NCBI GenBank assembly: GCA_903870275.1
Contig: CAIQCK010000119.1
Coordinates: 62,001 to 126,000, forward strand
Reading direction: 5' to 3'
Source: an uncultured bacterium
GTDB lineage: Bacteria > Verrucomicrobiota > Verrucomicrobiia > CAIQCK01
DNA length: 64,000 nucleotides
Shown here in pieces: positions 44,960-62,612 of the stretch. The notes beneath the pieces were generated by a model. The model saw nothing but the letters and a program-made list of their open reading frames with translations. It did no database searches and was not told where the DNA came from. Position 1 is the first letter of the stretch. Every line of letters begins with the position of its first letter. The position numbers were made by a program, and so were the translations under genes.

Positions 44960-45009
44960 GGCAAAATCATGAATGGCAAAATCATGATTTTGCCATTCAT
45001 GATTTTGCC
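44960..45009. repeat. Perfect 50-bp palindrome built from GGCAAAATCATG units
   Basis: GGCAAAATCATGAATGGCAAAATCATGATTTTGCCATTCATGATTTTGCC equals its own reverse complement; lies 149 bp upstream of the parA start. Confidence 0.9.
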
Positions 45010-46345: not shown

Positions 46346-46526
46346 GATGGCGACAGAAGGTAGTTTAGTGTTTGCCGGCCCTGAGGCGGCGGTGATTTGA
46401 GGTTTCGGAAACAGGCCAGCAATCAGTGCCGTTGCGGCCAGTTGCCGCGACATACCGGCCAGTTGAAAACGCGTTGCGAGGCATGCGAATTCTTGCAGTT
46501 TGAGCTTCCGCGCCTACACTGGCTCC

Positions 46527-47333
46527 ATGCCCCGACAAACTTCGCAGATCACGCGGCTGCTCGGCATCATGGCCCGGCTGCGCGCGCCGGGCGGCTGCCC
46601 TTGGGACCGCCAGCAAACGCACGCGTCCATCAAACTCAATCTCATCGAGGAAGCCTACGAGGTTCTGGATGCCATCGAGTCGCGCAACGACGCGGACTTG
46701 CGCGAGGAACTCGGCGATCTGCTGTTGCAGGTGACGTTCCACGCGCAGATGGCGAAGGAAAAGAAGCGCTTCGATTTCGAGGACGTGGCGCGGGCCATCG
46801 CCGACAAGCTCGTGTCGCGGCATCCGCACGTCTTCGGCAACCGCAAGCTGCGCACCGCCGGCCAGGTGCTCGACCAATGGCACAAGCTCAAGCACGCCGA
46901 GAAACAACACCGCCGTCCGTCCGTCACCGACGGCGTGCCGCGGCATCTGCCGGCGCTGATGCGCGCGCAGGAGGTGCAGAAAAAAGTCGCCCGCGTCGGG
47001 TTCGACTGGAGCCGCGCCGGCGAGGTGCTCGACAAGGTCGAGGAGGAAATCCGCGAGCTGCGCCATGAGATCCGGCGCGGTGACCGCCGGAAAATGGCGG
47101 AGGAACTTGGCGACCTGATGTTCGCACTGGTGAATCTCGCGCGGTTCCAGAAGTTCCAAGCGGAGGACCTGTTGAACCAATGCACGAAGAAGTTTGCCGC
47201 CCGGTTCCGCAAGGTTGAGGCCGCGCTGGCCGCGCGCGGCAAACAGCCGCACGAGTCCACGCTCGAGGAGATGGAAGCGGAGTGGCAGAAAGCCAAGGGG
47301 AAGAAGGCGAAGGGCGGAAGGCGGAAAGGGTGA
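46527..47333 (+). CDS. mazG: MazG nucleoside triphosphate pyrophosphohydrolase
   Basis: LLGIMARLRAPGGCPWDRQQTHASIKLNLIEEAYEVLDAIE; LREELGDLLLQVTFHAQMA; second EELGDLMFALVNLAR repeat. Confidence 0.93.
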   Translation: MPRQTSQITRLLGIMARLRAPGGCPWDRQQTHASIKLNLIEEAYEVLDAIESRNDADLREELGDLLLQVTFHAQMAKEKKRFDFEDVARAIADKLVSRHPHVFGNRKLRTAGQVLDQWHKLKHAEKQHRRPSVTDGVPRHLPALMRAQEVQKKVARVGFDWSRAGEVLDKVEEEIRELRHEIRRGDRRKMAEELGDLMFALVNLARFQKFQAEDLLNQCTKKFAARFRKVEAALAARGKQPHESTLEEMEAEWQKAKGKKAKGGRRKG

Positions 47334-47408
47334 ACGGGAAAGGCGGAACGCGAAACGCGAAGAGGGGAAGGCGGGAGCAGTGAGGGGGGCGTGATGCGCG
47401 TATCGTTT

Positions 47409-47610
47409 GAGCCGCGGAGCGGCGGCAGAAAATAGCCCACGGCGCCAGCCGTGGGGACTCGTAACAAGAGACGCAAGCCCCGGCAGGGGCGGAAGAAATC
47501 ATTCATCGTTGGCGCGCGTTTTCTACCGCCCCTGACGGGGCTTTGGTCTTTCGACACGTTATTCCCACGGCTGGCGCCGTGGGCTACGATCTGCCGCGCC
47601 TCCGGCGCTC
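47409..47610. repeat. Intergenic imperfect inverted-repeat element with nested hairpins (MITE/REPIN-like)
   Basis: 47-bp terminal arms (47409-47455, 47564-47610) plus inner GCCCC/GGGGC arms; see findings. Confidence 0.75.
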
Positions 47611-47729
47611 CCCGCGGAACCGGAACCGCTCGCATTCCAAAGGCTGCGGCCCGCCGGGAACGGCCCGCCCTGCCCAACGGATGCGCGAGTGACCTCAACG
47701 TTCGGCAGCAAAAATTAAGCAAAAATATC

Positions 47730-47756
47730 TTGACAATAAGAGATTATCACTATAGT
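47730..47756 (+). promoter_or_regulatory. Candidate sigma70-like promoter with an operator-like dyad
   Basis: TTGACA (47730-47735), 15-nt spacer, TATAGT (47751-47756); dyad TGACAAT-N5-ATTATCA at 47731-47749 in an AT-rich island. Confidence 0.4.
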
Positions 47757-47960
47757 TTGCGCCGACGCTGAAACGCGCCGGGACGCCAACGCAGACTTCC
47801 GGTGCGGCAAGAAAGAAGACAGGAAACAAAAGGAAAAAAGGCAGACAGCTTCCAGCCCGGCGAAGTGGTCGCGGCGTGACGTGACGGCTTTGCGCGGGAG
47901 AGGATGGTTTTGTCGAAACGAAGCCAGGTGAGCCGAAATGACACGGACCCGGAAAAAATA

Positions 47961-48279: not shown

Positions 48280-50835
48280 ATGAAAAACATTCGCGCTTTC
48301 AACGTTGTCGCCAACCTTCCCGAAGAACTGAGCGGACTGCGCACGCTGGCCTTCAACCTCTGGTGGTCGTGGGACGCCGAGGCCATCGAACTGTTCCGGC
48401 GGCTCGACCGGGAGATATGGCGCGCCTGTTATCACAACCCCGTGCGGCTGCTCGGCCAGATGGACCAGAGCCGGCTTCAGACGTTGAAGGCGGACAGCGG
48501 GTTCATGGCGCACATGCGACGCGTGCTGGCGCGGATGGAGCGCTACATGAGCGAGCCGACCTGGTTCCAAAAAGCGCACGACGGCACGGCGAAGTCGGAC
48601 ATGGCTTACTTCTCGCTGGAGTTCGGCATTCACGAATGTCTGCCGATTTACTCCGGCGGCCTTGGCGTGCTGGCGGGCGATCACCTGAAGAGCGCGAGCG
48701 ACCTCGGCCTGCCGCTGGTGGGCGTCGGCCTGTTGTATCGGAACGGTTTTTTTGAGCAGCAACTCAACGCTGACGGCTGGCAGCTCGAAGCGTATCCCGA
48801 TAATGATTTTTACAACATGCCGATTTCGCCGGCGACCGGCCCCAAGGGCGAGCGGTTGAAAGTCACCGTGGACCTGCCGGGCCGGCGGGTCGCGGCGCAA
48901 ATCTGGCGGGCGCAGGTGGGCCGCGTGCCGCTCTATCTGCTCGACACGAACCTTCAGGAGAATCCGCCCGCCGACCGCGGCATCACCTCCACGCTTTACG
49001 GCGGCGACAAGGACATGCGCATCCGGCAGGAAATCCTGCTCGGCGTCGGCGGCTTCCGCGCATTGCGCGCGCTGGGCTGCAACCCGCTGGTCTGCCACAT
49101 GAACGAGGGCCACGCGGCGTTTCTGGCGCTGGAGCGCATCCGGACGATGATGAAAGAGCAGGGGCTGAATTTCGCCGAGGCGCGCGAAGCGGTGGAAGCG
49201 GGCACGGTGTTCACCACCCACACGCCGGTGCCGGCGGGCATTGATGTGTTTCAGCCGGACCTGGTCGGGCATTACTTCGGCGGCTTCCAGCAGGAGCTGG
49301 GCCTGAACCGCGACCAGTTCCTGGCGATCGGCCGCGCCAATCCGGGCGACAACGGCGAAGGTTTCAACATGGCCATCCTCGCGCTGCGCACCTCCGCGAA
49401 ACGCAACGCCGTCAGCAAACTCCACGGCTCGGTCTCGCGCCGGATGTGGCGGTCGCTCTGGCCGGACTTGACGGAGCCGGAGGTGCCCATCTCGCACATC
49501 ACCAACGGCGTTCACACGCACTCGTGGCTCTCCAACGAAATGGCGTTCCTGTTCGAGACCTATCTCGGCAACCGCATGAAGGAAGAGCCGGCGGACGAAA
49601 GCGTCTGGGAAGGCATTCGCGAAATCCCCGACGCCGAGTTGTGGCGCACGCACGAGCGGCAGCGCGAGCGGCTCGTGGCGCACGCCCGGCGGCACCTGCG
49701 TTGGGAGCTGACGCGGCGCGGCGGCACGGCGGCGGAACTGGCCGACGCCGAGGAGGTGCTGGACCCGCGCGTGCTGACGATTGGCTTCGCGCGGCGCTTC
49801 GCAACCTACAAACGGCCGGCGCTGCTGCTGAGGGATATGGCGCGATTGAAGCGGCTGGTGACCAATGCGGACCGGCCCGTGCAATTCATTTTCTGCGGCA
49901 AGGCCCATCCGGAGGACAATCAGGGCAAGGAGATGATCCGCCAGTGGGTCCACGCCATCCGCGACCCCGAACTGCGCCGGCGGATCATCTTCATTGAAAA
50001 CTACGACGTGAACATCGCGCACTTCATGGTGCAGGGCAGTGACGTGTGGCTCAACAACCCGCGCCGGCCCCTGGAAGCCAGCGGCACCAGCGGCATGAAG
50101 GCCACCATCAACGGCGCCATCAACCTCAGCACCCTCGACGGTTGGTGGGCCGAGGCCGCCAGCCTCGACAACGGATGGACCATCGGCGGCGGCGAGGAAT
50201 ACCAGGACACCGACTACCAGGACAAAGTCGAGTGCGGCAATCTCTTCGACCTGCTGGAGAAGGAGGTCGTGCCGCTCTTCTACGAACGCGGCCCCGACGG
50301 ACTGCCGCGCCGCTGGATTCAGCGGATGAAAACATCCATCCAGACCATCGGCCCGTTCTTCAACAGCAACCGCATGGTCCGCGACTACGCCGAGCAGTTC
50401 TACCTGCCGTGCGCCGGGCGGTTCGCGCGCCTCACCGCCGACAAAGTCAAGGCCGGCCGCCAGCTTGCCGCCTGGAAACAGCGCCTTGCCGCCAAGTGGG
50501 GTGGCATCCGGCTCTCGCCCGCGCAGGACGCCGGCGCCGCCGAACTCCTCGCAGGCCAGGAACTTTCCGTCAGCGTCACCGTTTCACTCGACGGGCTGAC
50601 GCCGGACGACATCAATGCACAAATTGTCTTCGGTTCCATCGAGGCCGACGGCAGTCTCCAGCGCGTGCAGACCATGCCGATGAAACTCGTCTCGTCCGAA
50701 TCGGGCAACGCGCATCGTTTCACGGGCAAGATTACGTGCGGCGCCAGCGGTCGATTCGGCTACGCCGTCCGCATTCTGCCGCACCATCCCGACCTGAGCG
50801 AGCCGCTCGACATGCGCCTCGTCCACTGGGCGTAG
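48280..50835 (+). CDS. glgP: Alpha-glucan phosphorylase (GT35, TIGR02094-type)
   Basis: LAFNLWWSWDAEAIELF; MAYFSLEFGIHECLPIYSGGLGVLAGDHLKSASDLGLPLVGVGLLY; EASGTSGMKATINGAINLSTLDGWWAE. Confidence 0.93.
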   Translation: MKNIRAFNVVANLPEELSGLRTLAFNLWWSWDAEAIELFRRLDREIWRACYHNPVRLLGQMDQSRLQTLKADSGFMAHMRRVLARMERYMSEPTWFQKAHDGTAKSDMAYFSLEFGIHECLPIYSGGLGVLAGDHLKSASDLGLPLVGVGLLYRNGFFEQQLNADGWQLEAYPDNDFYNMPISPATGPKGERLKVTVDLPGRRVAAQIWRAQVGRVPLYLLDTNLQENPPADRGITSTLYGGDKDMRIRQEILLGVGGFRALRALGCNPLVCHMNEGHAAFLALERIRTMMKEQGLNFAEAREAVEAGTVFTTHTPVPAGIDVFQPDLVGHYFGGFQQELGLNRDQFLAIGRANPGDNGEGFNMAILALRTSAKRNAVSKLHGSVSRRMWRSLWPDLTEPEVPISHITNGVHTHSWLSNEMAFLFETYLGNRMKEEPADESVWEGIREIPDAELWRTHERQRERLVAHARRHLRWELTRRGGTAAELADAEEVLDPRVLTIGFARRFATYKRPALLLRDMARLKRLVTNADRPVQFIFCGKAHPEDNQGKEMIRQWVHAIRDPELRRRIIFIENYDVNIAHFMVQGSDVWLNNPRRPLEASGTSGMKATINGAINLSTLDGWWAEAASLDNGWTIGGGEEYQDTDYQDKVECGNLFDLLEKEVVPLFYERGPDGLPRRWIQRMKTSIQTIGPFFNSNRMVRDYAEQFYLPCAGRFARLTADKVKAGRQLAAWKQRLAAKWGGIRLSPAQDAGAAELLAGQELSVSVTVSLDGLTPDDINAQIVFGSIEADGSLQRVQTMPMKLVSSESGNAHRFTGKITCGASGRFGYAVRILPHHPDLSEPLDMRLVHWA

Positions 50836-61158: not shown

Positions 61159-62612
61159 TGAAAACACGAACAGGTTCGCAATGGGTCATGGCAGTGACAG
61201 TGTGCTGTGCCGCATGGTGCGTGGCGGTGGCGGGGCCGAAGATTGACACGTCGCCCGATCGGGCGAAGACGGATCTAAATCCGGGACTGAAGCAAATCGG
61301 CACGATCCAGCCGCGCGGCGTGAACGAGATTTCGGGGTCGAACTGGACGCTAGGATGCGAGACGCTCGACCGTGACTTCGCGGATTATCAGCAATACAAG
61401 GAATACCTCGTCCCGCTCGGCATCAGGACCATCCGGTTGCAGGGCGGCTGGGCCAAGACCGAGAAGGTGAAGGGAACCTATGATTTCACCTGGCTGGACA
61501 CGATCCTTGACGATGCCCGCGGGCGAGGCCTGAACATCCTTTTGGAAACCGGCTACGGCAACGCGGCCTACCAGGGCGGCGGCGGCACGGACCTGTCGGG
61601 CGGCTTTCCAACCTCCGAGGAGGGATTGGCGGCTTGGGACCGCTGGGTGGAGACCATGGCCACGCGCTACAAAGGCAAAGTCCGCGACTGGGCCATGTGG
61701 AACGAGCCGGACAACAACAAGCAGCACAAACCGGAGAACATTGCCGCGTTCAACATCCGCACGGCGGAGATCATCAAGCGCGTGATTCCCGACGCGCGCA
61801 TCGCCGGCCTCTCGCTGGCCAGTTCCAGCCCCAAGTTGCTGGAGAACTGCCTAAAGGCACTGGCCGAGAAGGGGAAGGTGGACCTTTTCCACTGGTTCAT
61901 TTACCACGGCTACGAGTTCAACCCGGACAGGTCCTATCAAAACGTCGAGGAGTTGAAGGCGACGCTGGCCAAATACTCGACGAAGGCGAAGATGCGGCAG
62001 GGCGAGAACGGTTGCCCGTCGGAAACGACAACGAAGTTCGCGCTCCCCAACCATCCGTGGACGGAGTCCAGCCAGGCCAAGTGGGATTTGCGGCGGATGC
62101 TCGGCGACCTGGGGCACGACGTGGAGTCGGCGGTCTTCACGATCTGCGATTTCAACCACACGGGGCGCGAGATCAACCGCAAGGGCCTGCTCCGGGCCAC
62201 GGCGGACAAGAAAGTGGAGAAGATCAAACCCGCCTACTATGCGGTCCAGAACTGCGTGGCGGTGTTCGACGACGCGCTGGAGCGCGTGAAGGAGCCGGTG
62301 GTCGGCGTGATGTATGACAAGGCAACGGCGAGCTTCGCCTACCGGAACAAAAAGACAGGACAGGCTCTTGTGGCGTTGTGGGACAACTCGGGAACTCCGG
62401 ACGATGCGTTTGTGACGCGGCCGGCGCAGGTCGTGGTGAAGGGCCTCGCGATCCAGGAGCCGGTTTGGGTGGACCTGGTCTCCGGGCGGATTTACGAAAT
62501 CCCGGCGGACCGCATCCTGAACGCAGGCGGGTTCACCATTTTCAAAAACATTCCCCTCTACGACGCGCCGGTGCTGATTGCAGAGAAGGCATTGCTGCCG
62601 TTCCGCCCGTAA
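61158..62612 (+). CDS. Secreted GH39-like TIM-barrel glycosidase
   Basis: Signal peptide; IRTIRLQGGWAKTEKVKGTYDFTWLDTILDDARGRGLNILLETGYG; VRDWAMWNEPDN catalytic-type NEP; RQGENGCPSE. ATG 61158 overlaps the previous stop. Confidence 0.7.
   Translation: MKTRTGSQWVMAVTVCCAAWCVAVAGPKIDTSPDRAKTDLNPGLKQIGTIQPRGVNEISGSNWTLGCETLDRDFADYQQYKEYLVPLGIRTIRLQGGWAKTEKVKGTYDFTWLDTILDDARGRGLNILLETGYGNAAYQGGGGTDLSGGFPTSEEGLAAWDRWVETMATRYKGKVRDWAMWNEPDNNKQHKPENIAAFNIRTAEIIKRVIPDARIAGLSLASSSPKLLENCLKALAEKGKVDLFHWFIYHGYEFNPDRSYQNVEELKATLAKYSTKAKMRQGENGCPSETTTKFALPNHPWTESSQAKWDLRRMLGDLGHDVESAVFTICDFNHTGREINRKGLLRATADKKVEKIKPAYYAVQNCVAVFDDALERVKEPVVGVMYDKATASFAYRNKKTGQALVALWDNSGTPDDAFVTRPAQVVVKGLAIQEPVWVDLVSGRIYEIPADRILNAGGFTIFKNIPLYDAPVLIAEKALLPFRP

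Follow-up and report, generated by a model that had tools for sequence, protein, structure and literature searches.

A dispersed REPIN-like dyad of covarying hairpins linked to subclass-1.2 IS200-like transposases, with a proposed rereading of the Rfam family Acido-Lenti-1

The window, that is, the whole 64,000-nt stretch analysed here (positions 62,001 to 126,000 of contig CAIQCK010000119.1, assembly GCA_903870275.1, from an uncultured bacterium of the Verrucomicrobiota), carries a 202-bp inverted dyad in the 946-bp gap that runs from mazG (46500-47333) to an alpha-glucan phosphorylase gene (48280-50835). Its arms (47409-47455 and 47564-47610) are 47 nt each and 85% complementary. Each arm belongs to a three-hairpin module consisting of hairpin A (5 bp), 12 nt whose last four are NTAG, hairpin B (8 bp), ~22 nt and hairpin A', and a short spacer separates the two inverted arms. 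The features are as follows, in window coordinates.

47409..47610, no strand: whole miniature inverted dyad, A-B-A' followed by its inverted counterpart (inverted repeats and copies in the own genome)
47411..47496, plus: left A-B-A' module (model R1, 75.2 bits, E 2e-14)
47522..47608, minus: right A-B-A' module (model R1, 82.9 bits, E 5e-16)
47410..47455, minus: left match to Rfam RF01687, Acido-Lenti-1 (55.3 bits, gathering score 37)
47564..47609, plus: right match to Rfam RF01687, Acido-Lenti-1 (54.3 bits, gathering score 37)
47411..47423, plus: left hairpin A, GCCGC-GGA-GCGGC (sequence, family alignment)
47432..47435, plus: ATAG at the foot of left hairpin B, putative guide tetranucleotide (NTAG precedes most B hairpins of the family)
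47436..47455, plus: left hairpin B, CCCACGGC-GCCA-GCCGTGGG (perfect 8-bp stem)
47477..47490, plus: left hairpin A' (sequence)
47496..47506, plus: AAATCATTCAT, likely remnant of a deleted gene (11 nt identical to the start-codon region of the C2 tnpA)
47528..47541, minus: right hairpin A' (sequence)
47564..47583, minus: right hairpin B (perfect 8-bp stem)
47584..47587, minus: GTAG at the foot of right hairpin B, CTAC on the plus strand (sequence, family)
47596..47608, minus: right hairpin A, GCGCC-GGA-GGCGC (sequence, family alignment)
47387..47408, plus: degenerate left outer end of a larger composite, GGGCGTGATGCGCGTATCGTTT, usual form GGGCGTGTTGCCCAAATCGTTT (by-eye comparison with the flanks of other copies)

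This anatomy agrees with the preliminary description, in which hairpin 1 of the left arm and of the reversed right arm differed by two changes per side with pairing kept, hairpin 2 was identical in both arms and the inner hairpin varied in its loop only. The 221-nt region folds at -147.5 kcal/mol versus -90.7 in shuffles (z = -12). A fold of the whole dyad as the functional unit is conceivable, yet the arm-to-arm mismatches of hairpin 1 are compensated locally, which favours separate hairpins. RF01687 covers both arms over all 46 model positions and above the gathering score and corresponds to the A+B portion of the module, and a match to the MicroRNA-like family RF00891 lay below gathering and was set aside as chance.

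The surroundings hold further repeats. A second dispersed repeat (GGAACCGCTCGCATTCCAAAGGCTGCGGCC...CCCAACGG, 47611-47700) abuts the dyad directly and also adjoins the copies on contigs C55, C99 and C121, followed at ~47725-47760 by a promoter-like stretch, TTGACAATAAGAGATTATCACTATAGT. The C126 copy has a similar stretch (TTGACA...TATATTGTC) next to it, and the copies on C60 and C64 have a related one nearby. Upstream of a ParA-like gene, positions 44960-45009 form a perfect 23-bp inverted repeat with a 4-nt loop (GGCAAAATCATGAATGGCAAAAT/CATG).

The dyad is dispersed in the host genome (7.13 Mb in 126 contigs), which yielded 81 BLAST matches with both palindrome strands counted and 58 RF01687 arm matches, amounting to dozens of copies; many of these sit at contig ends, so that the count is a minimum. 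The family is thus multicopy, and single-copy occurrence, the objection that the preliminary description had raised against itself, falls away. Its spread among relatives is patchy, with 34 matches (both strands counted) in G004, which represents a different genus of the family, and at most two in each of three genomes of the same genus. In G004, two identical dyads stand in direct tandem 226 bp apart (C79:2767-3198, L184), and the unit at the tandem junction has a GTGTTGCCC left end without a matching right end. A clean empty site was not found: the regions around the phosphorylase gene in the same-genus genomes G001 and G002 gave no mazG match, and G004 retains the mazG/phosphorylase gene pair with a ~118-bp gap at a divergence too great for base-exact comparison.

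A search of the host genome for Y1 transposases returned 11 matches, three of which (C65, C2 and C112) sit between inner A' hairpins. These copies are longer versions of the dyad arrangement with tnpA inside; the C2 copy has its left end cut off, and the C112 copy displays a different B stem (CTTGGGGC/GCCCCAAG) in which pairing is still kept. In the 202-bp copies the central spacer contains, exactly or nearly so, the AAATCATTCAT of the C2 tnpA start codon, and the match to this region was equalled by 0-2 of 500 shuffles for six copies and by 12-35 of 500 for the other five. Because tnpA lies between the A' hairpins of the longer relatives and AAATCATTCAT recurs in the spacers, the 202-bp form seems to derive from a tnpA-bearing unit by internal deletion. 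The three own genes share 53-69% identity with the first of them, unlike the several near-identical gene-bearing copies that move as a unit in an IS; recent copies may be concealed by the assembly. Other Y1 transposase genes of the host (L032, L034, L035, L038, L039 and L040) are each accompanied by their own, different hairpin repeats; several parallel hairpin-repeat/Y1 transposase systems coexist in this genome.

The own tnpA proteins (150 aa) carry the motifs DHVH, WQ and YITNQETHH, score 75 bits with NCBIfam IS200, above its cut-off, and match PF01797 at 98 bits, as Y1 HUH transposases do; among solved structures, ISHp608 TnpA is the nearest in sequence (E 1e-6). The NCBIfam REP_Tyr_transpos cut-off of 80 was not reached (L030, on C65, 21.5 bits; L033 21.2 bits; L031, on C2, none), and these scores rule out a classical RAYT (class 2) for the window element. 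Of the search for a RAYT or Y1 gene suggested by the preliminary description, the second term proved right, with a Y1 tnpA between the same hairpins, and the first did not. Subclass 1.2 is defined by DH[IV]H, WQ and Y---Q--HH at ~148 aa, mainly in Cyanobacteria and Bacteroidetes, without REP and generally without typical terminal structures (Quentin 2018, PMC6006769). Judged by motif and length, and not by a published profile, the own transposase fits this subclass.

We then scanned for transposase relatives and recovered 80 loci from Verrucomicrobia, Planctomycetes, Acidobacteria, Zixibacteria, Ignavibacteria, delta-proteobacteria and others, the query gene itself being flanked by the module; Y...Q..HH is present in 72 of the 80 proteins. 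Upstream and inverted downstream flanks were alike in 65/76 loci, as opposed to 2/62 for flanks 600 nt further out. The common unit comprises hairpin A, ~12 nt whose last four are NTAG (directly before most B hairpins), hairpin B, ~22 nt, hairpin A' and, in many loci, GNNAGA. A covariance-model search placed the module adjacent to tnpA in 65/71 loci and in opposite orientation on its two sides (51:5 upstream, 51:7 downstream); this model was built partly from the tested loci, and the 65/76 flank comparison is independent of it. The absence of REP-like flanks published for subclass 1.2 thus does not hold for these genes, and the description of the subclass is revised accordingly. Tandem A-B arrays occur at L092 and L095, hairpin types look modular between loci, and TnpA similarity correlates with B-stem similarity (Mantel r 0.27, 0/2000).

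For covariation, hairpins were called from only one arm of each locus and then tested on its partner. Among 986 stem pairs, 55 differed at both positions with Watson-Crick pairing kept, spread over 29 loci, and 4 differed at both positions with pairing lost; when changes were paired at random, two-sided Watson-Crick changes had a mean of 5.1 and a maximum of 11 in 1000 trials. A sequence-only alignment of 54 units scored 0.448 for covariation versus 0.097 when shuffled and at most 0.086 with slid partners, and the arm-to-arm test is the cleaner of the two because the 54 rows were chosen for good stems. These results uphold the suggestion that the arms are REPIN-like and kept as folded strands. 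The hairpin 1 substitutions in the window, from which that suggestion had started, are indeed compensatory, but the same double change (CG>GC, GC>CG) recurs identically in 9 of the 10 own copies with any two-sided change and thus reflects one ancestral event, not repeated evidence.

Collectively, these data make it probable that the 202-bp dyad is a miniature, non-autonomous derivative of a subclass-1.2 tnpA unit, and that RF01687 represents the DNA ends of such elements and their debris. How the dyads became numerous in this genome is a separate matter, on which the outer ends bear. Most own-genome dyads are embedded in a larger unit bounded on either side by GGGCGTGTTGCCCAAA. The same outer ends flank two further IS-like units at contig ends, so that multiplication of the dyads in this genome may have been the work of another transposase. 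Composites of ~290 bp bounded by GGGCGTGTTGCCCAAA are found at C121:257582, C2:232, C55, C85 and C76 (L011, L046, L005, L004 and L014). Several composite insertions lie in hairpin loops, those of hairpin B included, as would be expected if the dyads had multiplied mainly as passengers of an element whose own transposase inserts there. That account is a real possibility, which we hold as somewhat doubtful: the dyads on C64, C75 and C126 and the tnpA-bearing copies are devoid of GGGCGTGTTGCCCAAA ends, other genomes harbour their own fixed-length dyads, and the one readable IS fragment (44 aa, from an IS with GGGC ends) had no Pfam match. The window copy retains the degenerate left outer end only. 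The larger composite may thus have driven much of the dyad amplification in the own genome, a complication that leaves the cross-phylum link between module and TnpA untouched.

The Rfam matches, too, tie the module to tnpA. RF01687 was located within 150 nt at the flanks of 23/60 tnpA loci, mostly on the minus strand upstream (minus:plus 15:2) and mostly on the plus strand downstream (plus:minus 22:2). Among 57 relatives, RF01687 and TnpA 1.2 occurred together in 10 and alone in 2 and 1, with neither in 44. Across 289 genomes of the phylum Verrucomicrobiota, with TnpA 1.2 scored as present at E 1e-15, 58 had both, 193 had neither, RF01687 was not found in 12 that had TnpA 1.2, and TnpA 1.2 was not found at this threshold in 26 that had RF01687 (58/70 with TnpA, 26/219 without; odds ratio 36, p 2e-28, kinship ignored). 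The class-2 RAYT control gave an odds ratio of 5, falling to ~3 after accounting for TnpA 1.2, whose own ratio stayed at 28 and 31 within RAYT strata. Likewise, 56 named genomes picked solely for carrying the subclass-1.2 transposase yielded RF01687 matches at E 0.001 in 54 cases, with up to 108 copies, and 14 well-known control genomes yielded none. The Roseibacillus persicicus genome (locus L119, G372) and G274 of the phylum sample share a match with identical coordinates and score, which marks the sampled phylum as Verrucomicrobiota; cultured carriers of the repeats include R. persicicus, Haloferula and Geobacter argillaceus. Close RF01687 neighbours in four genomes formed divergent pairs in 41/41 cases among the matches listed, at a spacing typical of each genome.

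A literature search for an association of Acido-Lenti-1 with group II introns found none. Rfam describes RF01687 as an sRNA of Acidobacteria and Lentisphaerae, the founding paper rated the motif as 'probably' RNA and probably not cis-regulatory (Weinberg 2010, PMC2864571), and a 2026 paper suggests it as a regulator of Tannerella proteases (PMC13298647). The few available papers naming Acido-Lenti-1, other than PMC7682815, revealed no link to a transposase. The family could accordingly be a genuine structured RNA, an sRNA or mRNA-stabilising hairpins, serving in the regulation or travelling as cargo of tnpA elements; the arms would fold as RNA too, and covariation alone cannot separate RNA from transposon DNA ends. 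We nevertheless regard this as improbable. The copies are inverted dyads, so that transcription would read the one arm in the opposite sense to the other, RF01687 copies upstream of tnpA are antisense to it and downstream copies sense, and its presence follows tnpA. Moreover, one-sided stem changes are G-T and A-C about equally (40 versus 36, each locus counted in both directions), so neither strand shows signs of tolerating wobble pairs as RNA would. We therefore favour DNA over RNA as the folded arm, short of proof. It is just as unlikely that the perfect hairpins arose from templated mutation or block exchange in quasipalindromes, with no selection for folding, since this would suit the window's double change as one block event and the modular look of hairpin types but leaves the conserved spacing, the NTAG foot, the tnpA linkage, the orientation and the correlation of B stems with TnpA unexplained.

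As DNA ends of subclass-1.2 units, the modules resemble several known systems. RF01687 itself, matched by both window arms, is here part of a longer inverted A-B-A' module that adjoins tnpA in many phyla. The HUH, W and Y motifs and the length are those of TnpA subclass 1.2 (PMC6006769), which here comes with hairpin ends and with miniatures scattered in the genomes of Verrucomicrobia, Planctomycetes, Acidobacteria and others. REPINs (Bertels and Rainey 2011, PMC3116915), for which compensatory changes have been reported too, share the inverted hairpin doublets, the Y1 enzyme encoded elsewhere and a GTAG-like foot; the present dyads likewise consist of two inverted REPs that form a hairpin in many dispersed copies. 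They differ from the class-2 REPIN/RAYT system in an IS200-like class 1 enzyme, three hairpins per half and a ~200-bp miniature that looks like the gene-bearing unit after internal deletion, and are thus REPIN-like but no classical REPINs. IS200/IS605 elements such as IS608 have a related enzyme, as the ISHp608 and NCBIfam IS200 scores indicate, whereas the units described here combine low gene copy and diverged paralogues with inverted three-hairpin ends. In the parts of the TIRtron/TIRYT paper available to us (Di Nocera 2013, PMC3733652), tyrosine transposase genes lie between inverted, partly self-complementary repeats, Acidobacteria included, and Opitutus terrae (Verrucomicrobia) is rich in GTAG repeats; those parts draw no link from TIRtrons or GTAG REPs to RF01687 or subclass 1.2, and single examples may overlap.

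By sequence comparison, the case is strong that the dyad is a REPIN-type element whose cognate belongs to an enzyme class for which no such element was known. From the observed anatomy, gene linkage, inverted orientation, covariation, co-occurrence and copy number, we infer binding, cleavage and mobilisation in trans by a subclass-1.2 TnpA. The full unit reads A-B-A', tnpA and the inverted A'-B-A, would be mobile or REPtron-like, and would give rise to the miniature when devoid of the gene. TnpA most likely recognises the arm as an array of single-stranded hairpins on one strand, probably exposed during replication. By analogy with IS608 and TnpA_REP (summarised in PMC6006769), hairpin B would be bound by TnpA on one strand and the NTAG at its foot would serve as guide for cleavage. 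The inverted arms would constitute the left and right ends of the element, hairpins A and A' may mark the borders of the unit or hold a second subunit, and the miniature dyad would be moved in trans by a TnpA encoded elsewhere.

Both the REPIN-type element and the reinterpretation of the Rfam family are, at the level of experiment, unproven. If correct, they point to a family of single-strand DNA transposases that has gone unnoticed in several bacterial phyla and is flanked by the same hairpin ends as the 202-bp element, and would supply a substrate for a transposase subclass described as having none. They would likewise account for RF01687, an orphan in Rfam since 2010 that continues to be interpreted as a regulatory RNA. 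It is likely not an RNA but the single-stranded DNA recognition end of one more REPtron lineage derived from IS200, which is present in several phyla and forms genome-specific miniature dyads.
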